64,000 bases of DNA from Gracilibacillus orientalis (GTDB lineage: Bacteria > Bacillota > Bacilli > Bacillales > Amphibacillaceae), in contig NZ_FOTR01000003.1 of the NCBI RefSeq assembly GCF_900114645.1, positions 434,001-498,000 of the forward strand, written 5' to 3'. Position 1 is the stretch's first letter; every line of letters starts with the position of its first letter. The translations under genes were made by a program, and so were the position numbers. Under the pieces are notes generated by a model. That model worked only from the letters and a program-made list of their open reading frames with translations, was not told where the DNA came from and did no database searches. Positions 4,142-48,714 of this stretch are shown piece by piece.

Positions 4142-6117
4142 TCTGTTTCTCCTCCTTCATAATACTCATCTATAATTTCTTTCAACCATTCATAGGCATC
4201 AATTACAGCCATATCATCTAATTGGGTAGCAGCATTCGTTAGATGCCCGCCACCATTCATTTTTTCCATAATAACCTGGACATTAACATCTCCAAGTGAC
4301 CTTGCACTAATACCAATACGTCCATCTTCTCGCTCCGAAATCACAAATGACGCCTCGACTCCAGTCATCATTAACAAAGTATCAGCTGCCTGTGCAATAA
4401 CCACAGGACCATATCTTTCCCTTGAGTTCCCAACGGATATTGCAATATGACCACGATGAATATTCGTATTTTCAATTAATCTACTTCGTCTTACATAAAT
4501 ATCTAAATCTTCTTTTAAAAACTTCTGTACTAAAACCGTATCCGCACCTTTGGATCGTAAATAGGAAGCAGCATCAAAGGTTCTTGACCCTGTTCTTAAT
4601 GTAAAACTGTTGGTATCTACAATAATACCTGCTAATAATGCTGTCGATTCTAACATATTTAAAGAAAGCTTACTAGGCTGATATTCCAGCAATTCTGTTA
4701 CAAGCTCTGATGTCGATGATGCATATGGTTCCATATAAACAAGTGTAGGGTGATCAACAAACTCTTCACCTCTACGGTGGTGATCAATGACTACAACATG
4801 TTCTGTTTTATGGATTAATTTTTCCTCTTGAACCAAGGAAGGCTTATGCGTATCTACAACAACTAAAAGCGTGTCTTTTGTCACGATATCTAATGCTGAA
4901 CCGGGATCAATAAAGTATGACCACAATTCCTCACTTTCTTTCATTTCATCAACTAATCGCTTGACCCCTGTATTAATATCATCCTCATCTAAGACAATGA
5001 AACCTTCTACATCATTCGCTGCTGCTATTTTTAACACACCAATTGCAGCACCAATGGAATCCATGTCCGGAGCTTTATGCCCCATCACTAAAATTTGGTC
5101 GCTTTCTTTGACTAATTCTTTCAAGGCATGAGAAATAACCCTTGCTCTTACTCTGGTTCGTTTTTCCATTGGATTTGTTTTACCACCATAAAAACGGACT
5201 TTTCCAGAGTTATCATCTTTAATAACAACTTGGTCACCACCGCGACCTAGTGCTAAGTCAAGGCTCGATTGGGTTAATTCGCCCAAGCCAGGTAATTCTT
5301 CACTGCCTAATCCAATGCCAATACTTAGCGTTAATGGTACATTCTTATCCGTAATTAATTCACGTACTTCATCCAAAATCTCAAATTTCGATTTTTCTAA
5401 CTCACTCAAAATATTCTGATTCATCAGCGCCATAAATCGCTCTTGTGATGTTCGTTTTAAATAGATCCCTTGTTGATTCGACCATTTGTTTAAAATAGAT
5501 GTAACCTGTGAATTAATTTGACTTTTGGCAGTATCATCCATGTTTTGAGTTATTTCTTCGTAGTTATCTAAAAAGATGATCCCTAACACTGTTTTTTCAT
5601 GCTGGTAAAGCGTGTGAAGTTCTGTTTGTTTCGTTCGATCAAACAAATATAATAATCGTTCTTCTTTTTTGTTATATACCTGAAAATCATATGGACCAAT
5701 TGTAATCCAAAATGTTTCCTTTTCATCCTTTAAAAAAGATGGAATGTCTTTCGCTAAGACGTCTATTTTTTCACCTATTAATGAGTCAGCTTCGTTAAAG
5801 TGATTCATATAGGGATTCGCCCACTCTATCTGATAATTATCTCCATATAGTATAATTCCTATCGGCATCTCTAATAGGGCTTCTTCTCCGACCTTTTTGA
5901 CACGATAAGAAAGGGTTGATATATATGCTTCTGTCTGATTCACTAGTTGCTTTTCCCGCTCCATACTGTAATACAATGATCCAGCAAACAGAACGGTCAT
6001 CACACTACCAATAATCCAATGGAAATAAAATAGAAATACTAATAAGATAAAGGATAAAACATATATGCCTATGATATGCCTTCCCATTGCCACTGGTTTA
6101 TCCTTAATTTTTGGCAT
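4138..6117 (-). CDS. gdpP: Cyclic-di-AMP phosphodiesterase GdpP
   Basis: Membrane-anchored enzyme that hydrolyses cyclic di-AMP, the second messenger controlling potassium and osmolyte transport in Firmicutes. The 659 residues show two N-terminal membrane helices (about 15-55), a PAS-like region, a degenerate GGDEF domain and a DHH/DHHA1 module. That module has [25 protein letters not shown] and GGGHLTNAA, carrying the Mn2+ ligands and substrate-binding residues. The ATG at 6117 has AGGAG nine bases upstream; a TTG three codons earlier was not chosen. It lies between yybS and rplI. Confidence 0.96.
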
Positions 6118-6144
6118 GGTTGTCAACTCCTAACTAAAGTCCCT

Positions 6145-7077
6145 TTACTTTGCCATTCTTTTTCTTAACTCAAATCCTAAATCAATTATACCTAAGATTC
6201 TTATCAAATAAAGTCCCATAAAGGGAAAAAATATAATGAAAAGGATGCTAATAACTGGTAAAGCAAGTGACCGCTTCTTTGCATGCGTATAAAAGAAAAC
6301 AAATGCCAATCCTTGAATGGCCATCAATATTCCTGTTAAATGATACACATTCCATATTATAACAGAAGACCTCGTAGAATAGTCTCCCGCAGCAAAAAAG
6401 GAAATAAGTAACATGATGAAATAAAGCCACAAGATTATTTTAGGTAGGTTAAAGCTACGAAAAGGTGGAAAATAATATCGTTCTTGTTGTACTTTATTCA
6501 TTACTTTATAGCATACCCATTGTGTTACAATCGCAAAACCCATGGAAACCACTACTAACATCACCGGCATTAACTGTAACATGTTCATCATTTGTTCTCG
6601 TATCAGATCCAAATTCTGTTGCCCCATACCTACTGCCTGGAATATGCCCTCTGTCATTTGGATAGAATCATCCGTTGCATTCTCAAAGGCAGTCATAATC
6701 GAGAACTGGAGTACCACTTCAATATAAGCGTATATCAGCGCCAATCCTAAAACAAAACCAGCCGTACCTTTAGCCCAGGTTTCATAAGGATGTTGCCCTT
6801 GCTTAATAGACCATCCCATCATAGCTCCACTTATCAAAGCTAACATTGTTAGTGGAAATGAGAATACAGGGACAATAAATAAAGAAAAAGATAACAAAAG
6901 TAGCATGCCTAATATTGTCCACTTTATTGTATAATTTTTCATTAACAATATAACTGGAATTGGCAACAAAAACATGGTAACTACTTGTATAAACGGAATA
7001 AGTATCGTTACTAACAGAAGTAGCAAAAAGATACCTTCATATATATAAAAATCCTTCCTAACCGGTTGCTGATCCAT
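6145..7077 (-). CDS. yybS: YybS-family integral membrane protein (DUF2232)
   Basis: A 310-residue polytopic protein with about eight hydrophobic segments and few polar loops. It is recognised by size, DUF2232-like character and its place immediately before gdpP, as in B. subtilis. The biochemical role is unknown; it resembles S-component-like or permease-type membrane proteins. The start at 7077 follows AAAGGTGG at good spacing. It is the first gene of the operon running through gdpP and rplI to dnaB. Confidence 0.85.
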   Translation of the reverse strand: MDQQPVRKDFYIYEGIFLLLLLVTILIPFIQVVTMFLLPIPVILLMKNYTIKWTILGMLLLLSFSLFIVPVFSFPLTMLALISGAMMGWSIKQGQHPYETWAKGTAGFVLGLALIYAYIEVVLQFSIMTAFENATDDSIQMTEGIFQAVGMGQQNLDLIREQMMNMLQLMPVMLVVVSMGFAIVTQWVCYKVMNKVQQERYYFPPFRSFNLPKIILWLYFIMLLISFFAAGDYSTRSSVIIWNVYHLTGILMAIQGLAFVFFYTHAKKRSLALPVISILFIIFFPFMGLYLIRILGIIDLGFELRKRMAK

Positions 7078-7101
7078 GAGAAACCACCTTTACTTTGACT
7101 G

Positions 7102-7133
7102 AAAAAGCACAGCAAGAAAGCGCTGTGCTTTTT
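7102..7133 (-). terminator. Terminator-like hairpin in the yybS leader
   Basis: AAAAAGCACAGC (7102-7113) and GCTGTGCTTTTT (7122-7133) form a 12-bp stem with T-runs on both strands. It lies between the predicted yybS promoter and its ribosome binding site, about 25 bases before the start codon. On the minus strand it would terminate or attenuate transcription of the operon. Confidence 0.7.
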
Positions 7134-7156
7134 CTTCGTACACTTTTTATATACTA

Positions 7157-7185
7157 ATTATATACGAACAATATAACCACGACAA
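7157..7185 (-). promoter_or_regulatory. Predicted promoter of yybS-gdpP-rplI-dnaB, with a PurBox-like core
   Basis: On the minus strand TTGTCG (7180-7185) is followed after 17 bases by TATAAT (7157-7162). A CGAACAAT core (7165-7172) resembling half of a PurR operator lies within the spacer. The promoter is read from sequence; regulation by PurR is only suggested. Confidence 0.65.
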
Positions 7186-7355
7186 ATTAAAGAGTTTTAA
7201 AACGGGATAAACTTCGCCCATTACTAATTTGAAATAGCTGAAAATTGGACAGAATGGAGATTGACCAGCATTTATCCATTCGATTTAAAAAAGAAATGCG
7301 GGAACCTCTTTTATCCAGTATACTATAAGGAGAATAATTAGAGGAGGAGCATCAG

Positions 7356-8129
7356 ATGATTAAGACGATTATTTTTGACCTTGACGATACACTGTTGTGG
7401 GATAAAAAAAGTGTCAAAACCGCTTTTGAAGAAACTTGCCAATTAGCAAACCATAAATATGGAGTAGATCCTGAAAAATTAGAAGAGGCCGTTCGTGAGG
7501 AAGCTCGTAAGCTATATCAAGGATACGAAACCTATGAATTCACACAAATGATCGGCATTAACCCCTTTGAAGGACTTTGGGGAAATTTCTTAGATGACCA
7601 TACATACTTTAAAAAAATGGCGGAGATTGTCCCTAATTACCGCAAGGATGCTTGGACAAATGGTTTAAAACAACTAGGGATTGAAGATGAGGAATTCGCT
7701 GCTGACTTGGCAGAACAATTTCCTGAAAACCGCAAAAAGAACCCTTTCATTTATGAAGAAACGTTTTCTATTTTAAAAAAATTACAACATGACTATCAAT
7801 TAATCATGCTAACTAATGGCTCACCAGACTTACAAAATACGAAGTTAACGATTACTCCCGAATTAAAGGATTATTTCGATCATATTATTATTTCTGGTGA
7901 CTTTGGTAGAGGTAAGCCAGATCCCAGTATTTTTGAGCATGTTTTAGAAACTGCTGGTGTAACAAAGGGAGAAGCATTAATGGTTGGAGACAATTTGATG
8001 ACAGATATTCTTGGTGCAAACCGTACAGGAATTAAAAATGTCTGGATCAACCGTGAAAATAAACCGCCGCAAGAAGTGAAACCAACATATGAAATCAAAC
8101 ATCTCGAAGAACTATTTGATCTCATTTAA
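7356..8129 (+). CDS. HAD-superfamily hydrolase, YsaA-like (candidate phosphoserine phosphatase)
   Basis: A 257-residue HAD phosphatase. FDLDDTL gives the nucleophile Asp8 and acid/base Asp10; TNGSPD supplies motif II, GRGKPDP the motif III lysine, and GDNLMTDILGA the motif IV acidic pair. A large helical cap lies between motifs I and II. Members close to B. subtilis YsaA have been linked to phosphoserine dephosphorylation. The gene converges on serA, sharing a bidirectional terminator, which fits a serine-synthesis role. That function is inference. The ribosome binding site GAGGAGG precedes the ATG. It is head-on to left-arm replication, unlike its neighbours. Confidence 0.8.
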   Translation: MIKTIIFDLDDTLLWDKKSVKTAFEETCQLANHKYGVDPEKLEEAVREEARKLYQGYETYEFTQMIGINPFEGLWGNFLDDHTYFKKMAEIVPNYRKDAWTNGLKQLGIEDEEFAADLAEQFPENRKKNPFIYEETFSILKKLQHDYQLIMLTNGSPDLQNTKLTITPELKDYFDHIIISGDFGRGKPDPSIFEHVLETAGVTKGEALMVGDNLMTDILGANRTGIKNVWINRENKPPQEVKPTYEIKHLEELFDLI

Positions 8130-8154
8130 GTTAATGGTGAACATATATTACAAA

Positions 8155-8194
8155 ACAAGAGCTCTTCTTAGTGACTAAAGAAGAGCTCTTGTTA
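8155..8194. terminator. Bidirectional terminator between the HAD gene and serA
   Basis: A perfect 16-bp inverted repeat (8155-8170 with 8179-8194) has an eight-base loop, with the A side and T side giving weak U-tracts in both directions. It lies between two convergent genes. Confidence 0.85.
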
Positions 8195-8197
8195 TAT

Positions 8198-9784
8198 TTA
8201 TAGTTCCATAGCGGTTAGTTTTTCAATTTCTTCAAATTCATTTAAAGCTTCAATTTCTGCGTCTTCTAAATATTTATCAATTGTTAAGATCATGATTGCT
8301 TCGCCACCGACATCAGAACGACCGACTTGCATGGCCGCAATGTTGATGTTTTTCTCTGCAAACATACTACCAACCTTACCAATGACACCTGGACGGTCAT
8401 TGTGTTTAATAACAACTAGATTACCAGCAGGTACCACATCAACAGTATAAGCATCAACTTGTACAATGCGAGGACCTAAGCCATTTAGTAACGTACCAGA
8501 AATTGAACGTGTAACATCCTTTGTCTTCACTTCTACTGTTAATAAATTCGTAAATGCTTTTGTAGAAGAAGATTTATTTTCATTTACTTGAATACCTCGT
8601 TTTTCAGCTAAATAAGAAGCATTAACATCATTAATATGGTCACCCAGATGACGTTTTAATAAACCTTTAATAGTATTTCGCGTTAATGGCGCTACTTCTA
8701 ACTCCGTTAATTCACCAGAATAAGAAATGTTGATTTCTTCAATAACACCACTCGTTAAGTAAGTTAAGAACGTTCCTAATTTTTCTGACAAGTAGAAGTA
8801 TGGCTCAATTTTATTCATAATTTCTTTCGGTACAGATGGTAAGTTAACCGGGTTTTTAGCTACACCTTCTGTTAAGTAACGAACAACATCATGACTGACA
8901 TCAATCGCTACATTTTCTTGTGCTTCTACGGTACTTGCACCTAAGTGTGGTGTTGCAATCACTTCTGGAAGTTCTAATAAACGATGATCTGTTGCTGGTT
9001 CCTCTTCAAACACGTCCAAGGCAGCGCCTGCTACTTTCCCGGATTTAATGGCATCGTAGAGTGCTTCTTCATCAATAATACCGCCACGAGCACAGTTAAT
9101 AAGGCGTACACCGTCTTTCATTTTTGCGAATGCATCTTTATTAATTAAATGCTTTGTTTCTTTAATCAATGGTGTATGAACAGTGATGAAGTCAGATGCC
9201 ACTATAACATCCTCAACCGTTCCAAAATCAACACCAAGCTTGTCTGCTCTTTCCTTGGTTAAAAATGGATCATAGGCAATGATATTCATTCGTTGACCTT
9301 TCGCACGAGCCGCTACTTCTGCACCAATACGCCCCATACCAACAACACCAAGTGTTTTACCTTTTAATTCTACCCCAACATGGGTTTTGCGATCCCATTT
9401 ACCATTTTTCAATGCTAAAAATGCTTGTGGTATCTTTCTTGCCAATGACATGAGCATCGCAACAGTATGCTCTGCTGCAGAATTCGTATTTCCATCTGGT
9501 GCATTTACTACAATAACTCCGTATTCTGTTGCTGCACTCAAATCAATATTATCTACCCCAACACCGGCACGACCAATAATTTTCAGATTAGATGCTTGGC
9601 TAATAATATCTCTGGTTACTTTTGTTTGACTTCTTACTAGTAATGCCTCATATTCTCCAATTTTTTCTGTCAATTCGTCAGGAGATAAGCCAGTGTCAAT
9701 GTCGACTTGGATATTATCTGCTTCACGTAACGGTTTAATCCCATCTTCACTTAACGGATCACTAATTAGTACTTTAAATGTCAC
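8198..9784 (-). CDS. serA: D-3-phosphoglycerate dehydrogenase
   Basis: First enzyme of serine synthesis, oxidising 3-phosphoglycerate to 3-phosphohydroxypyruvate with NAD+. It has 528 residues, the long form with an intervening domain and a C-terminal ACT domain (HNDRPGVIGKVGSMF) that usually senses serine. The Rossmann motif is GVVGMGRIGAEVA. The catalytic Arg is in NCARGG, Glu in the DVFEEEP region, and His in PHLGAS. The GTG at 9784 (MTFKVLISD) is chosen because GGAGGGG lies at correct spacing; a TTG 15 bases upstream overlaps that site. Not adjacent to dnaB-rpsR in B. subtilis. Confidence 0.95.
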   Translation of the reverse strand: MTFKVLISDPLSEDGIKPLREADNIQVDIDTGLSPDELTEKIGEYEALLVRSQTKVTRDIISQASNLKIIGRAGVGVDNIDLSAATEYGVIVVNAPDGNTNSAAEHTVAMLMSLARKIPQAFLALKNGKWDRKTHVGVELKGKTLGVVGMGRIGAEVAARAKGQRMNIIAYDPFLTKERADKLGVDFGTVEDVIVASDFITVHTPLIKETKHLINKDAFAKMKDGVRLINCARGGIIDEEALYDAIKSGKVAGAALDVFEEEPATDHRLLELPEVIATPHLGASTVEAQENVAIDVSHDVVRYLTEGVAKNPVNLPSVPKEIMNKIEPYFYLSEKLGTFLTYLTSGVIEEINISYSGELTELEVAPLTRNTIKGLLKRHLGDHINDVNASYLAEKRGIQVNENKSSSTKAFTNLLTVEVKTKDVTRSISGTLLNGLGPRIVQVDAYTVDVVPAGNLVVIKHNDRPGVIGKVGSMFAEKNINIAAMQVGRSDVGGEAIMILTIDKYLEDAEIEALNEFEEIEKLTAMEL

Positions 9785-17027: not shown

Positions 17028-17888
17028 TCATTTTTTCTTAGGTATTTTGATCGTGAACTGATAATACTCATCATGATCCTGTTCATCTGTCTCTAAGTCA
17101 ATCCCAGTGTCAGATACCATGTCTAGTGATTGCCTAATCGTGTTCATGGCAATTCTCATATCTTTGTTAACACCTTTTAATCTAGGCTTTTTAGCAGGCT
17201 TTTTCTTATCAGATAACAGTCGCTCTATTTGAGCCTCTGTTTGTTTTACATTCAAATCCCGTTCAATAATCTGTTCTAAAACTTTCAGTTGAAGTTCTTC
17301 ACTCTTTAAAACGATCAATGAACGAGCATGTCTTTCCGTAATCGTCTTCTGCAAAATAGCTTGTTTCACTTGTTCTGGCAATTTCAATAAGCGCATTTTA
17401 TTTGCTATAGTGGATTGACTTTTACCTAAGCGTTGGGCTAATGCTTCTTGTGTTAACTCGTGCATTTCTATTAATTTCTCATATGCTGACGCTTCTTCGA
17501 TTACTGTAAGTTCCTCACGTTGCAAGTTTTCTATTAATGCTACCGATGCAGTCTCTTTATCTGTCATATTGCGAACAATTGCCGGTATCTTTTCCCAATC
17601 CAAGCTTTTAGCGGCTCGCCAACGTCTTTCACCGGCTATTATTTCATATTGTTCTGCTTCCTGATCAATAGATCGGACTACAATCGGCTGAATCATACCA
17701 TGTGTATGTAGAGTTTGTGCTAATTCTTTAATTTTTTCTTCATTAAAGATGGATCTAGGCTGGTATCGATTTGCTTCAATAGCATCAATATTGATGAAAA
17801 CTACTTCATCTTGATAGTTTCCTTGGTCCTCAATTTCGTCATCCACCTTATCACCTAATCCAAAAATCCGACCAAATGGGTGTAACAT
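17028..17888 (-). CDS. noc: Nucleoid occlusion protein Noc
   Basis: ParB paralogue that binds its own sites and membrane to prevent division over the nucleoid. It has 286 residues. The N-terminal [14 protein letters not shown] corresponds to the amphipathic membrane-targeting peptide of B. subtilis Noc. GERRWRAAK gives the CTP-binding motif and [23 protein letters not shown] the helix-turn-helix. The ATG at 17888 is chosen because it restores that peptide and has AAGGTGGT upstream. It sits between parA and rsmG as expected. Confidence 0.95.
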
Positions 17889-18036
17889 AAAAAACACCAC
17901 CTTTTTTCTGCTTAAACAAATTCAAATAATGTTGTATGAGAGCGAATACTTATCCCTGTTTATTAATTTAATACAAGGGAAAACTTGCTTAAAACTAGAA
18001 TTTAAGCAAGTCTTAGAAGCCGTTTTATATCCCAAA

Positions 18037-18052
18037 TGTTTCACGTGGAACA
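18037..18052. promoter_or_regulatory. parS centromere site (variant)
   Basis: TGTTTCACGTGGAACA; its reverse complement TGTTCCACGTGAAACA is one of the known B. subtilis parS forms. It lies between noc and rsmG. Confidence 0.92.
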
Positions 18053-18136
18053 TAACTAGTAATCTGTTACTCTTATTTTATCACAAAAATCGCGAAAGAG
18101 ATAAAAAATATGACTTATTTTTTATAAAAATATCTT

Positions 18137-18853
18137 TTATAAAGGATTTTTATTTGGAACACCTGGTTTTCTTGGGAACTTTTTTGGTGTTTTACGCTTT
18201 TTGCTAACGATAACGATATTTCTTTCCCCATTATTTTCTGGTAATGAAAAATGCCCAACACGTTGTAATTTTCCACCTAATAATTCCATTGCATCCTCAG
18301 CATCGGCAAGTTCCTCATCCACATTAGATCCCTTCATGGCAATAAACGTACCATTTGTTCGTAAAAGTGGTAGGCAAAGCTCAGACAAAACAGATGTTCT
18401 GGCAACAGCTCGAGCCATCACTACATCAAATTTATGTCTGAACTGTTCGTTTTTACCAAACAATTCTGCTCGATCATGGTAAAAACTTACACCTTCAAGT
18501 TCTAGTTCTGTAGCTAAATGATTTAAAAAGGTAATTCGTTTATTTAATGAATCTACAATCGTGACCTGTATTTGTGGAAAAAGTATTTTGAGTGGAATAC
18601 TTGGGAAACCAGCACCAGCACCCACATCACATACATGAAATTCATTAGTAAAATCAAAATAGAAGGCAGCCGTGATTGAATCATAAAAATGTTTTGCATA
18701 GACCTCTTCTTTATCTGTGATTGCAGTTAAATTCATTTTTTCATTCCACTCCACCAGTACGTGGAAGTATGTTTCAAATTGCTGTAATTGCTTTTCTGTG
18801 ATCTCTATACCTTCTCTTTTTAGATGTTCTTGAAAGGAAAGAAGATTCATCAT
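18137..18853 (-). CDS. rsmG: 16S rRNA (guanine(527)-N7)-methyltransferase RsmG
   Basis: SAM-dependent enzyme methylating G527 of 16S rRNA; loss gives low-level streptomycin resistance in other bacteria. It has 238 residues. The SAM-binding motif is [17 protein letters not shown], and VMARAVA is a family signature. The basic C-terminus [14 protein letters not shown] is typical. Two adjacent ATG codons (18853, 18850) follow GGAGTGG. It is directly downstream of mnmG. Confidence 0.96.
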
Positions 18854-18862
18854 GCCACTCCT

Positions 18863-20755
18863 CTATTCGTTCGATACTTTAGCCACATTCCCTTGTTCAA
18901 TATACACTAAAAGAATGGAAACATCAGCTGGATTAACACCAGATATTCTTGATGCTTGAGCTACTGATAGCGGACGTACTTGTTTTAATTTTTCTCTCGC
19001 TTCTGTAGCAATACCACTAATCGCATCATAATCAATATCTTCTGGAACTAATTTATTTTCCATTTTTTTCATGCGTTCGACTTGTTGATTCGATTTCACG
19101 ATATAACCTTGATATTTAATTTGAATTTCTACTTGTTCTTTCACATCAGCCGCTAATACTTTTTCAGATGGTGCTATTTGTTCTATTACATCATAAGTAA
19201 CTTCTGGTCGTTTCATTAAATCATAAGCAAGAATTCCATCTTTTAACCTAGTACCACCGACAGACTCCATTAGCTGTTGCAGTTCTTCTGTTGGTTTTAA
19301 ACGAATATTGCTTAATCGTTCTTTTTCTTCCTCAACTAAATGTTTCTTTTCTTCAAAACGTGCAAATCGTTCATCTGGAATTAAGCCGATTTGGTGACCA
19401 ATATCAGTTAAACGCAAGTCCGCATTATCGTGACGTAGTAATAAGCGATATTCTGCACGTGAAGTTAATAAACGATATGGTTCATTGGTACCTTTTGTTA
19501 CAAGGTCGTCAATTAATACACCAATATACGCTTGTGATCGATCTAAAATTAATGAATCTTTGTCCAATGCCTTTGCAGCTGCATTAATACCAGCCATTAA
19601 GCCTTGACCTGCCGCTTCTTCATAACCGGATGTTCCATTAATTTGACCTGCTGTAAATAATCCTTTGATATTTTTCACTTCAAGTGTTGGCCATAATTGA
19701 GTTGGTACTACCGAATCATATTCAATTGCGTAACCGCCACGCATAATATCCGCTTCTTCCAACCCAGGAATACTGCGCAAAATTTCGTGTTGTACATATT
19801 CAGGTAATGAAGTAGATAGACCTTGGACATATACTTCATCGGTATTACGGCCTTCTGGCTCTAAGAAAATTTGATGACGTGGTTTATCATGGAATCGGAC
19901 AATTTTATCCTCAATGGATGGGCAATAACGCGGTCCTGTTCCTTTGATCATGCCTGAATACATAGCTGATAAACCTAGATTTTCATTAATAATCTCGTGG
20001 GTTTTTTCATTTGTATATGTTAACCAGCACGGAATTTGATCCAGAATTTCCTCCGTCGTTTCATAGGAAAAGTGTTGTGGATTTTCATCCCCTGGTTGAA
20101 TTTCCGTTTTATCATAATCAATCGAATGATTATTAACTCTTGGAGGTGTACCTGTTTTAAAGCGAACAAGATCAAACCCAAGCTCTTCCAGGTTTTCCGC
20201 TAATTTTACACTTGCTCGTTGGTTATTTGGTCCACTTTCATAAGAAATATCTCCAGTAATAACACGGCCGCGCATAAACGTACCGGTAGTAATAATGACA
20301 GATTCAGCACGGTATAATGCTTTAGTCTCTGTTATAACTCCTTTTACTTTACTATCTTCAACAAGTAATTCCTCAACCATTCCTTGTCTTATAGTTAAAT
20401 TCGGTTCTTCTTCTAATGTTTGCTTCATTTCTTGAATATAAAGTGGTTTGTCTGCTTGTGCACGTAATGCCCGAACAGCAGGCCCTTTCCCAGTATTAAG
20501 CATTCTCATTTGAATATATGTTTTATCGATCACTTTACCCATTAATCCGCCTAATGCATCAATTTCACGAACGACGATACCTTTGGCAGGTCCACCAATT
20601 GACGGGTTACAAGGCATAAATGCGATCAAATCTAAGTTCAATGTTAATATTAATGTTTTCGCTCCACTTTTAGCAGCAGCATATGCAGCCTCTACTCCTG
20701 CATGACCTGCCCCGATGACGATCACATCATATTGACCAGCTTCGTAAGTTGACAT
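18863..20755 (-). CDS. mnmG: tRNA uridine-5-carboxymethylaminomethyl synthesis enzyme MnmG
   Basis: FAD/NADH-dependent partner of MnmE that modifies the wobble uridine of several tRNAs. It has 630 residues. The FAD motif [12 protein letters not shown] is at the N-terminus, with [12 protein letters not shown] and [17 protein letters not shown] signatures in the middle and a helical C-terminal domain for MnmE binding. GGAGGATCAGCG precedes the ATG. Co-oriented with mnmE 27 bases upstream. Confidence 0.97.
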
Positions 20756-20782: not shown

Positions 20783-22159
20783 TTATTTTCCTAAACAGAA
20801 CTGTGAAAACAGTTGATCAATCAAACTGTCTTGCATCGTATCTCCTATAATCTCACCTAATAGCTCCCATGCTCTTGTAACATCAATTTGTACCAGGTCA
20901 ATAGGCATATCCGCATCCATCGCGTCGATTGCATCTTCCAAAGCCTTTATAGTTTGCTGCAATAATTGAATATGACGTACATTCGACACATACGTTAAGT
21001 CACCACTGTCCAAATCTCCAGCAAAAAAGGTATCTGCAATAGCTTCTTCTAAAGCATCCATACCTTTATCTTCAATTAAGGTAGTGGTGATTACTTTTTG
21101 ATCACCGGCTAATTGCTTCACTTCTTCCAATTCTAACTTTTGATCTAGGTCTGTTTTATTGATAATCACTATATATTCTAAGCCCTCTACAGCTTTAAAA
21201 AGATTACGGTCTTCCTCTGTTAATTCTTCACCATAGTTTAGTACAAGTAAAATTAAGTCAGACTCTTTTAAGGCTTGACGTGACCGTTCTACACCGATCC
21301 GCTCAACAATATCCTCTGTTTCACGAATCCCTGCCGTATCAACTAACCGTAACGGAATACCACGAACGTTAACATATTCCTCTATCACATCTCTCGTTGT
21401 ACCTGGAATTTCCGTTACAATCGCCTTCGTTTCCTGTACAAATGCATTAAGCAATGACGACTTTCCTACATTTGGGCGTCCAATGATCGCTGTTCCAATA
21501 CCTTCACGTAAAATTTTCCCTTGCTTCGCCATACTTAATAATCGATCAACTTCTTGATATACCTCTGCTGTTCGTTCTCTTAGCATCTGATGAGACATTT
21601 CTTCAACGTCATCATACTCCGGATAGTCTATGTTCACTTCTACATGCGCTACCGTTTCAATTAACTTTTGCCTTAATTGATGAACGAGTTTCGATAGTTT
21701 TCCATCTAATTGCTTCAAAGCTATATTCATGGCTTTATCTGTTTTGGCACGAATCAAATCCATGACTGCTTCTGCTTGTGATAAATCAATACGGCCATTG
21801 AGAAATGCTCGTTTGGTAAACTCTCCTGGTTCAGCTAAACGTGCACCGTGGAATAAAACATGTTCTAATAATCGATTAACAGATACCAGTCCACCATGAC
21901 AGTTAATCTCTACTACGTCTTCTTTCGTAAACGTTTTTGGTGCACGCATGACGGTAACCATTACTTCTTCCATTATTTCATTTGTCTCGGTATCAACTAT
22001 TTTTCCATAATGAATCGTATGGGATTCGACTGTTTCGAGATCTTTCCCTTCAAACAGTTTATTACTTATAGCAATTGCATCCTCTCCACTTAATCGTACA
22101 ATCGCAATTGCTCCTTCTCCTATCGGTGTCGAAATCGCTGTTATTGTATCTTTTTCCAC
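20783..22159 (-). CDS. mnmE: tRNA modification GTPase MnmE
   Basis: GTPase acting with MnmG, using formyl-tetrahydrofolate, to modify U34 of tRNA. It has 458 residues. An N-terminal folate-binding domain is followed by a helical region with an embedded G domain ([21 protein letters not shown]). The C-terminal FCLGK carries the conserved cysteine. A DnaA-box cluster lies 100-210 bases upstream of its start. Confidence 0.97.
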
Positions 22160-22677
22160 TCTCTCACCCCCATTATTCCATTTTTTCTATATTAATTAAC
22201 GATATTTTTCATTTAGTGTCACTAACTTATTAGAATATCATAAAACTATATCACTTGAAAAGATATCCACACTGAGTTTTCACTTTTATATATAACATAT
22301 ATTATCCACATGTGCATAACTTTTTATGAATTTTGTTATGCACAAACATCCAAAAGATAATTATTCACATGTACTCTATGTCGAAAATTGCTCCTTACCT
22401 TCCTTTCTTCTTTAAATAGCAAAATATACTCCCATGACCTTACTACTTGTTTATTCTCTACTACTAAATTCCTCCAATCAAAGTTAGACAAATTCAGAAT
22501 AGGATTTCTTAACTGATTCTAACTTGATAAAACTTACGAACCAGTAAATATTTAGATTTGCTTCTTTCAGTCTGATTATTGTTGACTACTAAGCGATCGC
22601 TGCGGAAAAACACTTTTCCAAAGGGAGCTTCAGCTCGTGTTTTCTCTAGAGTGTCTCATTTAATAAATATTATCGAC
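22160..22677. other. Gene-free mnmE-jag interval
   Basis: Contains the DnaA-box cluster and, at about 22592-22660, a degenerate piece of the family A repeat (GCTGCGGAAAAACAC, AGCTTCAGCTCGTG). Otherwise it is AT-rich sequence without a supported reading frame. In B. subtilis this gap is much shorter, from memory. Confidence 0.55.
22263..22369. promoter_or_regulatory. DnaA-box cluster upstream of mnmE
   Basis: Four perfect TTATNCACA boxes lie within 68 bases: 22302-22310, 22311-22319 (inverted and abutting), 22336-22344 and 22361-22369. A one-mismatch box is at 22263-22271. The spacing is as dense as in oriC itself, about 3 kb from dnaA. Confidence 0.8.
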
Positions 22678-22708
22678 AAAAAAACGAGCAATCGTGGTTG
22701 ATTACTCG
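22678..22708 (-). terminator. Terminator of rnpA-yidC-jag
   Basis: CGAGCAATC and GATTACTCG form a stem (22685-22693 with 22700-22708) with a six-base loop. On the minus strand it is followed by seven T, 19 bases past the jag stop. Confidence 0.88.
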
Positions 22709-22726
22709 CGTCTAAGGACAAGTTAT

Positions 22727-25102: not shown

Positions 25103-25333
25103 TGTGGATAAGTATAAATCACCAAAACGACTTTATCAACTCTTTATCGACAAATTACTCACAAAATAAGAACATGTTTATAGATTTTAGTAACAATTTG
25201 TCTAAGTTGTGGATAAGTATCGAGAAACCATTGCATTATTCGGCTTTATTTGATATTATATTTGTGTTTTAGTTTGTGCATAAAATTATTAGCAAATACT
25301 CTTATCCACAGTTTGTGGATATGGTGTGGACAA
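25103..25333. other. oriC, DnaA-box region upstream of dnaA
   Basis: The rpmH-dnaA gap holds perfect TTATNCACA boxes at 25103-25111, 25208-25216, 25275-25283 and 25302-25310. One-mismatch boxes are at 25144-25152, 25314-25322 and 25325-25333. Together with the second cluster after dnaA this forms the bipartite origin known from B. subtilis. The rest of 24945-25479 is AT-rich and gene-free. Confidence 0.92.
25231..25259 (+). promoter_or_regulatory. dnaA promoter
   Basis: TTGCAT (25231-25236) is followed after 17 bases by TATTAT (25254-25259). DnaA boxes flank it at 25208-25216 and 25275-25283, so autoregulation by DnaA is likely. Confidence 0.8.
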
Positions 25334-25479
25334 ATGTTCACAGCTTGTATATTAGTTTATACACATTATTGTGGAAAACTTAATTTTTAGGTTTTCCGCT
25401 TTTTTATCAGTGTACATCCATCCACAAGTTATTATGCATGTATACTTCCTAGTGTTGCCTTATGAAAGGAGGGTTTATC

Positions 25480-26857: not shown

Positions 26858-26949
26858 TGTGGGTAATGTGGATAAATGATGCAAACCTGCAAACAAGTTA
26901 TGCACATCTGGATAACTTTACAAAAACAGCGAAACTTGAGTTATCCACA
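26858..26949. other. oriC, DnaA-box region between dnaA and dnaN
   Basis: Perfect DnaA boxes at 26867-26875, 26898-26906 and 26941-26949, with one-mismatch boxes at 26858-26866 and 26907-26915. Confidence 0.92.
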
Positions 26950-26960
26950 TATTCACAGTC

Positions 26961-27010
26961 CCTATTACTATTATTACGGTAATTATATTAATAATAAATA
27001 AATATATTCC
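26961..27010. other. oriC unwinding element: DnaA-trio-like tract plus AT-rich DUE
   Basis: Directly after the last DnaA box, CCTATTACTATTATTAC (26961-26977) resembles the trinucleotide DnaA-trio array of B. subtilis. About 30 bases of almost pure A/T follow (26981-27008). This is the expected site of initial strand opening. Confidence 0.75.
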
Positions 27011-43668: not shown

Positions 43669-44499
43669 ATGAGTATTAAAGATTACACGATTGCATTTTT
43701 AGGAGCGGGTTCCATGGCAGAGGCTATTATTGCAGGAATGACGGCTAAAGAAATGGTATCTGCTGACCGAATTATTGCAACTAATCATTCCAATAAAAAG
43801 CGTTTAGCAGTATTAGAAAATAAATATGGTATTCGAACATCACAATCCAGAGAGGATGTGGTGAGCCAAAGTGATATCATCATTTTAGCGATGAAGCCGA
43901 AAGATATTCAATCTGGAATTGCTGAAATGAAAGATTTTTTAAGTGACAGTAAAATTGTTGTGTCATTATTGGCAGGGATCTCTACGCAATATATTGAACA
44001 ATTACTAGGAACCAACAATGCTGTTGTCCGTGTCATGCCCAATACATCAGCAATGATCGGACAATCAGCTTCGACGATAACTGGAGGTCAGTATGTTGAC
44101 TTTCCAACTGTTGGATTAATAAAAAATCTTATGACATCCATTGGTACCACAACATTGATACAAGAAGAGGAAATGGATGCTTATACTGCTTTAGCGGGCA
44201 GTGCACCTGCTTTTTATTATTACATGGTGGAAGCAATGGAGAAGTTTGTCGAAGAACAAGGTTTAAATAAAGAAACAGCCATGCCTTTAATGACACAAAC
44301 GATTAAAGGTGTTGGGGAGATGTTAGCCATATCGGATGATACACCGGGAACATTACGAGGAAACATTACAAGCCCTGGTGGTACGACAGAAGCAGGAATT
44401 AATACATTAGCACAACACGAATTTCAACAAGCGGTAATTGCTTGTTTAGAGCGGACAACAGAAAGATCCAAAGAGTTAAGAGAAATGTTTGAAAAATAA
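43669..44499 (+). CDS. proC: Pyrroline-5-carboxylate reductase
   Basis: Last step of proline synthesis, reducing pyrroline-5-carboxylate with NAD(P)H; proline is also a compatible solute. It has 276 residues. The Rossmann motif FLGAGSMAEAIIAGM opens the protein. VRVMPNTSAMIGQSAS and the C-terminal LRGNITSPGGTTEAGI are family signatures. The ATG at 43669 follows AAAAGGTGG. Not in this place in B. subtilis. Confidence 0.96.
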   Translation: MSIKDYTIAFLGAGSMAEAIIAGMTAKEMVSADRIIATNHSNKKRLAVLENKYGIRTSQSREDVVSQSDIIILAMKPKDIQSGIAEMKDFLSDSKIVVSLLAGISTQYIEQLLGTNNAVVRVMPNTSAMIGQSASTITGGQYVDFPTVGLIKNLMTSIGTTTLIQEEEMDAYTALAGSAPAFYYYMVEAMEKFVEEQGLNKETAMPLMTQTIKGVGEMLAISDDTPGTLRGNITSPGGTTEAGINTLAQHEFQQAVIACLERTTERSKELREMFEK

Positions 44500-44589
44500 A
44501 TTAGGATAGGGAAGTCTTGCCTTTTGTCTTATGTTTTATTAAGATATAAAGGGACATTTCCCTTGTTCCTTTGATCAATTTTGTATCAT

Positions 44590-44663
44590 GACCCCGTAGC
44601 TCAGTAGGATAGAGCACTTCTCTCCTAAAGAAGGTGTCGGAGGTTCGAATCCTCTCGGGGTCG
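44590..44663 (+). tRNA. tRNA-Arg (anticodon CCU)
   Basis: Acceptor stem GACCCCG/CGGGGTC, D-arm with GTAGCTCAGT, anticodon loop CTCCTAA (CCT) and T-loop TTCGAAT. The 3' CCA is not encoded: the discriminator G is followed by TTA. Confidence 0.95.
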
Positions 44664-44706
44664 TTATTTTCAGAAAGATGAATAACCTTATCCCTATGTT
44701 CCACTT

Positions 44707-44871
44707 TTATTTGAATAATAGGAACCAGATGGAGAAGAAGGCTACGATCGGCATGAGGATTACGATAGCGATACCGCCTGTCTTATTTCCTTCTTGAAAT
44801 GTCTCTTTGCTATGAATGATCATCCGATAGCATATGAAAATGGTTATTAATATTATCATGATATTCCACAA
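44707..44871 (-). CDS. Small two-helix membrane protein after gerC (candidate GerD-type '2Tm' subunit)
   Basis: A 54-residue frame starts at TTG two bases from the gerC stop codon. Its ribosome site GAGGTGAGGG lies inside the end of gerC. The protein has two hydrophobic segments (about residues 2-19 and 33-53) separated by a polar loop SKETFQEGNKTGG. Small two-transmembrane proteins encoded beside gerA-type operons (2Tm or D subunits) are known to modulate germinant receptors. The assignment rests on position, size and topology. Confidence 0.65.
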   Translation of the reverse strand: MWNIMIILITIFICYRMIIHSKETFQEGNKTGGIAIVILMPIVAFFSIWFLLFK

Positions 44872-44872
44872 T

Positions 44873-46120
44873 TTAATCCCTCACCTCATCTAAATGAGAA
44901 TCATCTAACATCTTTCCGAATTCTAACTTGTCTATATAGTAAGTGACATTAATTTTTGCGTTGGGATATATTTTTTTATGCCAGTCTGCTTTTTCATAGG
45001 ATTTAACATCTTTAAAATGCTTGCGAATATATAAAGACCAATAAAAAGGATCTGACCGATATTCTTCTTGTGATTTTTTAATTAAGGTATTTGTCTTTTC
45101 CTCTAATCGTTGAATGATGGATTCTTCCAAAACTTTTTGTTTATCTTTGTTTTGCGTGTATCCAATTAGACTGGGGATAGCTATAATTTCCGCCTGAAAA
45201 TGAACTTTTACGTCAATTTCTGTTGGTTTATCTTTATGATAGTTTATATTAATAGATGGTTTTTGTTTTTGCGAATATTCATATGAAATACGGTATTCGG
45301 GCATTAAAGGATCGGGAATCGTAGCAAGATAATCCCCCATCTCTAATGTGTTATCTAACGTTTGTGCAATCCTGCTTTCTTCTCCATTCAAAATATCTAT
45401 CATTTGTCCTTCTTTAAAGACGGCTGAACCCATAAATTGTGTCGGAGAACCACCGATTTGTGGAATTTCTCCAGCAATATATTGATCTTCAAAACCTCTC
45501 TCATTTTTTTTCTCATCCGATTGATCGGTGGTGGCATAAATAGCTAAGAAAAGATCTGCATCTCCTTCTGTAATTTGAAAAAAACGGTGTAAAGTTGCTC
45601 GAGGAATGATACCTGTTTGGTTCGCACGGCTCAGCATAAATTGATAATATTTATGTGGTCTTTTTTCCATGATTGGTTCATTGTTATTAATAAAATCAGT
45701 TGCTGATTCTTTAGATATAACCAGTTGAACCCCTCTTCGTATTTGAGGTGTTCTAGAAGCAGACTGAATAACACGAAGGAAATCTTCGGATCGGGCTGCT
45801 TCTTCTGAAGCAATAATAATTCTTGTATGATCTAACGTGATTTTTTTCGAAACAAATGAATTTGCTGTGTACGTTGCAGTTAAAATATCTGCTCCGTTAA
45901 CCGTTACTATTTCAGTCGGTGGTTCATCAGGCCCACTTTGAATGGCAGAGGAACCCACTTCAGGGTTGGCAATTTGATAAGTAAAGGCATATACTCCCTT
46001 TTGATCTGTGTTGTCAATACCAATTGCAATAACATAAGATTGTTGCTCTAATTCAATTCGATCATTACAACCTGCTAGCAGGATGACAAAACCTAATACA
46101 ATCAATAGTTTTTTTTTCAT
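44873..46120 (-). CDS. gerC: Germinant receptor lipoprotein GerC (Ger(x)C family)
   Basis: Outer lipoprotein subunit of a spore nutrient-germinant receptor on the inner spore membrane. It has 415 residues. The lipoprotein signal MKKKLLIVLGFVILLAGC has Cys at about 18. The Ger(x)C N-terminal domain (AIGIDNTDQKGVYAFTYQIANP) and C-terminal domain follow. The ATG at 46120 overlaps the gerB stop by four bases. B. subtilis names cannot fix which receptor (A, B, K or other) it is. Confidence 0.9.
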   Translation of the reverse strand: MKKKLLIVLGFVILLAGCNDRIELEQQSYVIAIGIDNTDQKGVYAFTYQIANPEVGSSAIQSGPDEPPTEIVTVNGADILTATYTANSFVSKKITLDHTRIIIASEEAARSEDFLRVIQSASRTPQIRRGVQLVISKESATDFINNNEPIMEKRPHKYYQFMLSRANQTGIIPRATLHRFFQITEGDADLFLAIYATTDQSDEKKNERGFEDQYIAGEIPQIGGSPTQFMGSAVFKEGQMIDILNGEESRIAQTLDNTLEMGDYLATIPDPLMPEYRISYEYSQKQKPSININYHKDKPTEIDVKVHFQAEIIAIPSLIGYTQNKDKQKVLEESIIQRLEEKTNTLIKKSQEEYRSDPFYWSLYIRKHFKDVKSYEKADWHKKIYPNAKINVTYYIDKLEFGKMLDDSHLDEVRD

Positions 46121-47205
46121 TGTTTTAAGTCTCCTTTGCCCCATGCGATTATCCATAGTACAAATGGAAAAATAATAAAAAAGGGTGACATAATCGTTAG
46201 TAAAGTTTCTCGAAAAACTAACTCGTTTATAACCGAATTAAATGGTGAGAGACCAATTATTATAACTAAAAAACTGAATGGTAAAAGCAGAGGTTCAAAA
46301 TTACGAATTGCAAATATCTCACCAAAAATCCATGTAGTAATATAGATAAAGATAATGAACTTTATAAAAGCTGCAAATAACCAGAAAATCATAAAGATTG
46401 TTTCAATATTAGTTAAAAAATTACCGAGATTAATATATTGAGTAATGTCATGAAAAGGAAATTGGATTTTTTTAATCGAATTATAGTCAAACACAGAAGC
46501 ATAGACAAAATAAAATATAGTAATTTCCAAGAGGACAATAATACTGGCTAGCAAAATCCCTTTTCGAAACATGGAGGTTCTTTTCGCAGATTGATACGCA
46601 ATTAATAGGAAAAACAATTCCGCAAAAATGCCTGCCTTTTTAACTCCTTCTGATAAAACAACTGGAAGACTGGCACCAAAAATAGGAAAGATACGTTGAA
46701 CAACGATGTCTCCGTAAATAAGTATGAGCACTAGGACGAATGCTGCCTTAATGGTGAAAAGAGTAATCCAAGATGTAAATCCAATTACTTCAATCCCTTT
46801 TTTGGCTCCGATAAAGACAACAGCAATAAATACAAAATAAATCAAATCAGTTGGAGACTCAGGGAAATACAGTAACTTGATTTGTTCAATATAGTTACGG
46901 CTGTCTAGTGTCAGTGTCAAAAAAGCAAATATAAATAACAGGATACCAACGCATTTACCTATCCATTTGCCTGTTAAAGACTCCAGTAACTCTACAATAT
47001 TTTTATCTTGATACTTTTTAAGCAGGTAAAGCATGATAAGAAAGCTAGGTAAAATACAGATAAAAGAAAGTAAAGGGATCAACCAAAATCCATTTTGTGC
47101 TTTTTGAGCCATTAAAGCTGGAGTTGAATCTGATAATTTAATTCCAACTAAAATAAGGGTCATTGCTAATATTTCTTTTAATCGTAAAAATCCCTTGTTT
47201 TGCAT
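46117..47205 (-). CDS. gerB: Germinant receptor permease-like subunit GerB
   Basis: Ten-helix membrane subunit of the APC-superfamily fold that likely holds the amino-acid germinant site. It has 362 residues. Hydrophobic segments are spread over the length, with the conserved SYALGTV-like entrance replaced by VGIKLSDSTPALMAQKAQNGFWL. Middle gene of gerA-gerB-gerC, 21 bases after gerA and overlapping gerC. Confidence 0.9.
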   Translation of the reverse strand: MQNKGFLRLKEILAMTLILVGIKLSDSTPALMAQKAQNGFWLIPLLSFICILPSFLIMLYLLKKYQDKNIVELLESLTGKWIGKCVGILLFIFAFLTLTLDSRNYIEQIKLLYFPESPTDLIYFVFIAVVFIGAKKGIEVIGFTSWITLFTIKAAFVLVLILIYGDIVVQRIFPIFGASLPVVLSEGVKKAGIFAELFFLLIAYQSAKRTSMFRKGILLASIIVLLEITIFYFVYASVFDYNSIKKIQFPFHDITQYINLGNFLTNIETIFMIFWLFAAFIKFIIFIYITTWIFGEIFAIRNFEPLLLPFSFLVIIIGLSPFNSVINELVFRETLLTIMSPFFIIFPFVLWIIAWGKGDLKQ

Positions 47206-47226
47206 CCTGTTTCACCTGCTTAAGTA

Positions 47227-48714
47227 TTATTTAGACTTTTTTTGTACATCTTTTGGATGTAAATAATTCGGGCGGAAAATTTCTTTTTTTATTGGCTTAC
47301 GAAAAACCGTGTCCTCAGATGATAAAAAATGTGGAGACATCGGTGAAAAGAAAGGAATGCCAAATGATTTAATGGATGCAGCATACATAAAAAATAGTAA
47401 AAAGGCTCCTGTTAATGCGAGCATTCCGAATGCCCCAGCTGCCAGAATGAATATAAAACGCATAAGTCGAACGGTAAAATTAATGTTTATATCTGCTAAA
47501 GCAAACGATGATAAACCTGATAGTGCGGCAACAATTACAATGATTGGACTAATAATATTTGCTTGTACCGCTGCTTGTCCTAAAATTAAAGCCCCTACAA
47601 TACCGATGGTTGGGCCTAATGGGTTAGGGATACGAAGACCTGCTTCACGAATGAGCTCAAAGGCAATCTCCATAATTAATACTTCAACTATTAAGGGAAA
47701 AGGAACCCGTTCCCTAGAGGCGGTAATCGCTAATAATAGATCAGGTGGAATCATTTCACTGTGGAAATTGGAAATTGCCACATAGCTAGCAGATATTAAT
47801 AAAGTTAAATAAAAACAAAATAGTCGAATTGCTCTGGTGAAATTCCCATAAAAAAACCGTAAATAACGGTCTTCAGGTGAATGAAAGAAAGACCAAAAGG
47901 TGACTGGTACAATTAAACAGGCAGACGAACTATCCATTAATAAAATGATAAACCCGTCTTCCAGATAGGAACTGGCTTTATCAGGTTTTTCTGTGTACAA
48001 CACGGTAGGAATTAGAGAGTATGGACGCTCTTCAATATATTGTTCCAAAATTTCAATATTGCGTACGTTATCCGTTGCAATCTGTTCCAGTCGTGACCTT
48101 ACATTTTCTAGAATGTCTTCATTTACTAAATCTTTAATATAGACTAAATTTACTTCATTTTTCGATCGTTCACCGGTTTGAACTCCCTCATTAATCAAAT
48201 GATTATTATGGAGTTGTTTGCGAATTAAAGAAATATTACTATTTAATGATTCCGTAAAAGCCTCTTGTGGTCCTTTAATGGTGTTTTCATTCTCGGTAAT
48301 TGATATGTTTCGATGCGCAAAATCGGCGACATCCATTGCATAAGCAGTATCATCTCCATCGATAAGAAGTATAATTTTCCCACTATTGATGTTTTGAATG
48401 ATTTTTTCAAAGTTATCCACTTCTTCAATATTTTCAATCGAGACAACATTGTTTACCGATTCTCCGCTTCTTTCAAGTAAAGGTTTTATCACATGTAAGT
48501 TAATCATTGGTCCATTTACTATCGAACTGTAATAAAAAAGACAAGCGTCCTTTTTATTAAAATGTATTTGAATAGTGCGCATTGCAAAATCTTTATTGAC
48601 TCCGTAAGAGAATAATTGTTTGGATTCTTGAATATTGTCTTGTAGTGAAGTAGATATTTTTTTGTGTTTTGATGGTGTCTGAGACTTCTTTGATTGTTTG
48701 AAAGATCGAACCAC
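47227..48714 (-). CDS. gerA: Germinant receptor subunit GerA
   Basis: Receptor subunit with a large N-terminal cytosolic domain and C-terminal membrane helices. It has 495 residues from the GTG at 48714; a GTG three codons earlier overlaps GAGGTG. The SRREVPFP-like conserved motif is seen as ASRERVPFPLIVEVLIMEIAFELIREAGLRIPNPLGPTIGIVGALILGQAAVQA (residues about 325-385). Recent work on the family treats this subunit as an ion channel component. Confidence 0.92.
   Translation of the reverse strand: MVRSFKQSKKSQTPSKHKKISTSLQDNIQESKQLFSYGVNKDFAMRTIQIHFNKKDACLFYYSSIVNGPMINLHVIKPLLERSGESVNNVVSIENIEEVDNFEKIIQNINSGKIILLIDGDDTAYAMDVADFAHRNISITENENTIKGPQEAFTESLNSNISLIRKQLHNNHLINEGVQTGERSKNEVNLVYIKDLVNEDILENVRSRLEQIATDNVRNIEILEQYIEERPYSLIPTVLYTEKPDKASSYLEDGFIILLMDSSSACLIVPVTFWSFFHSPEDRYLRFFYGNFTRAIRLFCFYLTLLISASYVAISNFHSEMIPPDLLLAITASRERVPFPLIVEVLIMEIAFELIREAGLRIPNPLGPTIGIVGALILGQAAVQANIISPIIVIVAALSGLSSFALADININFTVRLMRFIFILAAGAFGMLALTGAFLLFFMYAASIKSFGIPFFSPMSPHFLSSEDTVFRKPIKKEIFRPNYLHPKDVQKKSK

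Follow-up and report, generated by a model that had tools for sequence, protein, structure and literature searches.

A conserved DnaA-box cluster between jag and mnmE in Gracilibacillus orientalis, a probable DnaA operator of the mnmE operon

The region 5' of mnmE in Gracilibacillus orientalis contains a cluster of DnaA boxes that probably serves as a DnaA operator of the mnmE-mnmG-rsmG-noc promoter and would also withdraw some DnaA from oriC, as suggested by its sequence and its geometry in relatives. Judged from its sequence, this cluster is the Gracilibacillus version of the known trmE/jag region of Bacillus subtilis, and is conserved rather than new. What is added here is the definition of its constrained core, the recognition that a near-match box at the promoter is conserved, and the observation that the wider set of clusters also recurs in Gracilibacillus. 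The boxes under constraint are an abutting inverted pair and the promoter-proximal box. The window, which is the whole stretch of 64,000 nucleotides analysed, belongs to an assembly of 4.6 Mb, the MnmE of which shares 95% identity with the Gracilibacillus lacisalsi protein.

Four perfect TTATNCACA DnaA boxes are found within 68 bp (22302–22369) in the 567 bp gap between jag (low end 22727), identified by NF041568, and mnmE (start 22159), with mnmG, rsmG and noc following mnmE on the same strand (Table 1). The first-pass annotation had reported these four boxes, two of them abutting and inverted, along with a near-match, and all are located as it claimed. The dnaA start is approximately 3.1 kb to the right of the cluster, in agreement with the 3 kb given previously. 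The boxes had been described as being as dense as in oriC; taking perfect boxes alone, they are denser here than in either oriC half, where there are 5 in 263 bp (25103–25365) and 3 in 83 bp (26867–26949). In 20,000 dinucleotide shuffles of the 567 bp gap, four boxes were never reached, the maximum being three, and 19,232 shuffles contained no box. Likewise, no more than two boxes fell within 68 bp in 200 shuffles of the whole window. There are 259 single perfect boxes in the genome, compared to 232 matches to a reversed control pattern. Single boxes are therefore near the genomic background and it is the cluster itself that is the signal. Box pairs 30 bp or less apart occur in few places in the genome, with 0–1 control matches per strand, and the abutting pair is present in one copy.

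Table 1. Features of the jag-mnmE region and the other DnaA-box clusters of the genome. Positions are those of the window, except where a contig (C) is given.
Feature	Position	Strand	Remarks
mnmE (trmE, thdF)	20783..22159	(-)	TIGR00450; first gene of the downstream operon
Rest of presumed operon	17028..20755	(-)	mnmG 18863-20755, rsmG 18137-18853, noc 17028-17900
Start-region element AATAAGTTAGTGAC	22218..22231	(-)	immediately 3' of the -10
Predicted extended -10 TGATATTCT of mnmE operon	22232..22240	(-)	TATTCT 22232-22237, TG 22239-22240
Promoter-proximal box ATATCCACA	22263-22271	(+)	lies 25 bp 5' of the -10, with 39 bp to the pair; single mismatch
Abutting inverted pair of perfect boxes, TTATCCACA and TGTGCATAA	22302..22319	(+) and (-)	22302-22310 (+), 22311-22319 (-); conserved core
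Perfect box TTATGCACA	22336-22344	(+)	common to part of the genus
Perfect box TTATTCACA	22361-22369	(+)	lineage-specific
jag terminator-like hairpin	22684..22709	(-)	3' of jag, between jag and the mnmE promoter
gcp/ydiF cluster	C7:213018-213125		between ABC-F gene and tsaD
ywlC (ywlC/ywlB) cluster	C23:30623
yqeG cluster	C27:38534		upstream of yqeG
htrC/rlmH cluster	C13:425031-425084		adjoins htrA (htrC); rlmH (yydA) ~2.7 kb away

The 450 bp upstream of mnmE were searched at 81 mnmE loci, being those of 80 relatives and the window. The abutting pair, TTATNCACA followed directly by TGTGNATAA, is perfect in 45 of these and has one mismatch in 24 more, a total of 69 out of 81. Among 2,383 control tiles taken from these loci, 41 matched at least 17 of the 18 positions, and as the tiles include oriC the true background is probably lower. 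All 15 good-quality Gracilibacillus genomes have kept the pair, either intact or with one mismatch, the latter being the case for the two designated G001 and G006; a perfect pair is found upstream of mnmE in 12 other Gracilibacillus genomes, at about -145 to -174. The genus alignment has 8 out of 9 invariant columns in each box of the pair and 9 out of 9 in the promoter-proximal ATATCCACA, with 39 out of 196 for non-box positions, whereas neither of the boxes at 22336 and 22361 has any (0 out of 9). At the 22336 position, G. lacisalsi and a small number of others also have a box, and the 22361 box was not found at that position in the aligned members of the genus. The near-match at 22263, correctly placed previously, is thus the weakest-looking box and the most conserved in the genus. 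The question of whether the boxes are conserved in relatives, raised by the first-pass annotation as a means of refuting its proposal, has a divided answer, with the core being conserved and two of the four perfect boxes (22336 and 22361) not generally kept.

In other Bacillaceae the promoter-proximal spot often holds a perfect box. No perfect boxes are present in the jag-mnmE gap of Alkalibacillus (L069), Allobacillus (L058), and Piscibacillus (L046), so the cluster is dispensable in some lineages, a point against the operator reading. A record titled Roseburia sp. 1XD42-34 (L035) has a typical Bacillaceae mnmE region, with 76% MnmE identity, and its name is probably wrong.

The predicted promoter of the mnmE operon was absent from the output of a strict sigma-70 consensus scan and was recognised instead by alignment and conservation. 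The TATTCT of its -10 is invariant in the genus alignment. An extended -10 is present in 78 out of 93 upstream regions, and TATTCT in 54. That the promoter is called by conservation, with only a weak -35-like TTTTCA at 22256–22261, counts against the operator reading. The spacing of the boxes is regular. A third box is present in 75 of the 93 upstream regions having the pair, at 38–40 bp from the second box in 48 of the 75, and the gap between the third box and the extended -10 is 24–25 bp in 35 regions, although, as these regions share descent, the counts do not represent independent events. In the window the pair is at -160/-151 and the third box, which is the promoter-proximal near-match at 22263–22271, is at -112 relative to mnmE. 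The start-region element AATAAGTTAGTGAC varies very little within Gracilibacillus and is common among related halophilic Bacillaceae, with GTTAGTGA found in 49 out of 112 mnmE upstream regions. A genome search for a second exact copy of AATAAGTTAGTGAC found none, this being a single copy element.

The same box architecture is shared with subtilis-group genomes, which have a TTATTCACATGTGGATAA pair and then a third box, TGTGGATAA, 40 bp on, at -151/-142/-102. The representatives of this group, L117 and L118, were chosen by dnaA similarity and have their boxes at -151/-152, -142/-143, and -102/-103. In the in vitro genome-wide binding study of B. subtilis published in PLoS Genet. in 2015, the DnaA-binding region upstream of trmE and downstream of jag is region 5, in the top ten and among the eight strongest, with 4 sites and a Kd of 0.33 uM (ATP) and 0.43 uM (ADP); DnaA appears to repress trmE-noc directly in this species (PMC4447404). 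The Gracilibacillus cluster is like this region in its gene context, its abutting inverted pair, its third box approximately 40 bp on, and the presence of noc in the operon. It is unlike it in the one mismatch of the third box, in having two extra perfect boxes upstream, and in its -10, which is TATTCT and is apparently TATCTT in the subtilis group. The sequences show directly that the boxes exceed chance and are conserved, and they also show the geometry and synteny. An operator for DnaA described in a single model species would be an old, conserved Bacillaceae feature with a fixed geometry.

In G. orientalis, DnaA would bind at two places, counted from the presumed start: the abutting pair (about -77 to -94) and the promoter-proximal box (about -38 to -46). 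The latter touches the -35 region, the place where a repressor might be expected. High levels of DnaA would then hinder RNA polymerase, and the operon, with its nucleoid occlusion gene noc, would be expressed at a lower level. DnaA bound at the cluster would become unavailable to oriC close by, and the cluster would contribute in this way to a titrating set spread over the genome. What we infer from the present analysis is that DnaA binds and represses in G. orientalis, that it does so by occlusion, where transcription starts, and how far the cluster shares in titration. Since noc is apparently in the same operon, a link between the level of DnaA and nucleoid occlusion is directly testable. 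CRISPRi block of DnaA boxes 6–7 in B. subtilis left the levels of other DnaA-regulon proteins unchanged (PMC11019786), which counts against the operator reading, although this treatment may leave DnaA at the trmE site unaltered. Three functions had been offered for the cluster originally: regulation of mnmE, titration of DnaA, and a third origin sub-region. Regulation of mnmE is the best supported, given conserved boxes whose distance to a conserved promoter is fixed and the reported repression of trmE-noc in B. subtilis; titration is plausible as a shared role, and the origin proposal is not supported.

It is unlikely that the main role of the cluster is titration, limiting the free DnaA for oriC, with its position at a promoter being secondary, yet this alternative has several points in its favour. 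Several perfect boxes are clustered outside oriC beyond chance, and the lineage-specific boxes at 22336 and 22361 would add capacity without a fixed promoter geometry. Genome-wide clusters were sought using paired-box patterns and, besides oriC and the mnmE site, four clusters match B. subtilis places (Table 1). Together with the mnmE site, this gives five of the six B. subtilis regions outside oriC that recur in G. orientalis, while the box-pair scan of the genome found no clear counterpart of ywcI/vpr. Two-box pairs were also found near a cof-type phosphatase, trpA, and metA. Extra-oriC DnaA-box clusters (DBCs) in B. subtilis were reported by Okumura et al. in 2012, as cited in later papers. 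The Gracilibacillus cluster is like these DBCs in being intergenic, in having several perfect boxes, and in that other members of the set also recur in its genome. In B. subtilis, initiation came early when six extra-oriC clusters were deleted, and putting one of them back partly corrected this (PMC5295017; PMC13220808), so that these clusters jointly restrain initiation. The trmE cluster is presumably one of the six, because they equal in number the six strong binding regions outside oriC. The recurring clusters support the view that the Bacillaceae have DnaA titration in common. However, neither the distances of 38–40 bp to the third box and 24–25 bp from it to the -10 nor the conservation of a degenerate promoter box is predicted by titration alone. 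E. coli datA is also a DnaA-box cluster outside oriC, unlike which the Gracilibacillus cluster is at a promoter and has no IHF site assigned; IHF is reported to be absent from B. subtilis (PMC13220808).

Where the zero-spaced pair occurs within the order, it is single-copy in most genomes and is kept at one promoter. It is conceivable, with a low probability, that DnaA forms a dedicated assembly on this pair that has an activity of its own, coupling the state of the initiator to noc and thereby to cell division. Such an activity might be the sensing or changing of the nucleotide state of DnaA, making the pair a Gram-positive counterpart of DARS or datA.

It is very improbable that the head-to-head pair acts as E. 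coli DARS does, promoting nucleotide exchange on DnaA. In DARS1 and DARS2, box I has the opposite orientation to boxes II and III and the DnaA contacts are head-to-head (PMC5742627), and here too one box of the conserved core is opposed to the other two. The core spacing differs from that of DARS2, being 0 bp and 30 bp here versus 5 bp (I–II) and 3 bp (II–III) as read from sequence, and on this basis membership of the DARS was rejected despite the matching orientation. In addition, the B. subtilis region has no preference for ADP in the Kd values above, and the reported absence of IHF from that species is contrary to this model.

Equally improbable is a third origin sub-region, aiding unwinding or looping. 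The cluster is only 3.1 kb from dnaA, its box density is as in oriC, and its surroundings are AT-rich. However, the oriC of B. subtilis is described as bipartite (PMC5295017) and the extra-oriC clusters are reported to be inhibitory (PMC11019786). Between dnaA and dnaN, positions 26941–26976 carry the textbook unwinding motif of boxes, a GC-rich spacer (GTCCC) and a run of the DnaA-trio, CTATTACTATTATTA, at 26962–26976. Two neighbouring boxes with GTCCC and a trio make this gap the likely unwinding site. No DnaA-trio adjoins the boxes in the jag-mnmE gap, the sole trio-like run there being away from them. Chance clustering in an AT-rich gap, in a genome where single boxes are common, has a negligible probability and was rejected on the basis of the shuffles and of a core kept across genera.

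A class-wide search for the pair was not specific to mnmE and had dnaA/oriC matches in several other families. The abutting inverted pair is next to dnaA, rather than mnmE, in L141, L142, and L144–L147 from other families and in L153 from the same family. This suggests that the pair motif is also an origin element. In the window, GC skew changes sign around dnaA; at 44001–48000 and 6001–9000 GC skew is near zero and the sign of the AT skew flips relative to the flanks.
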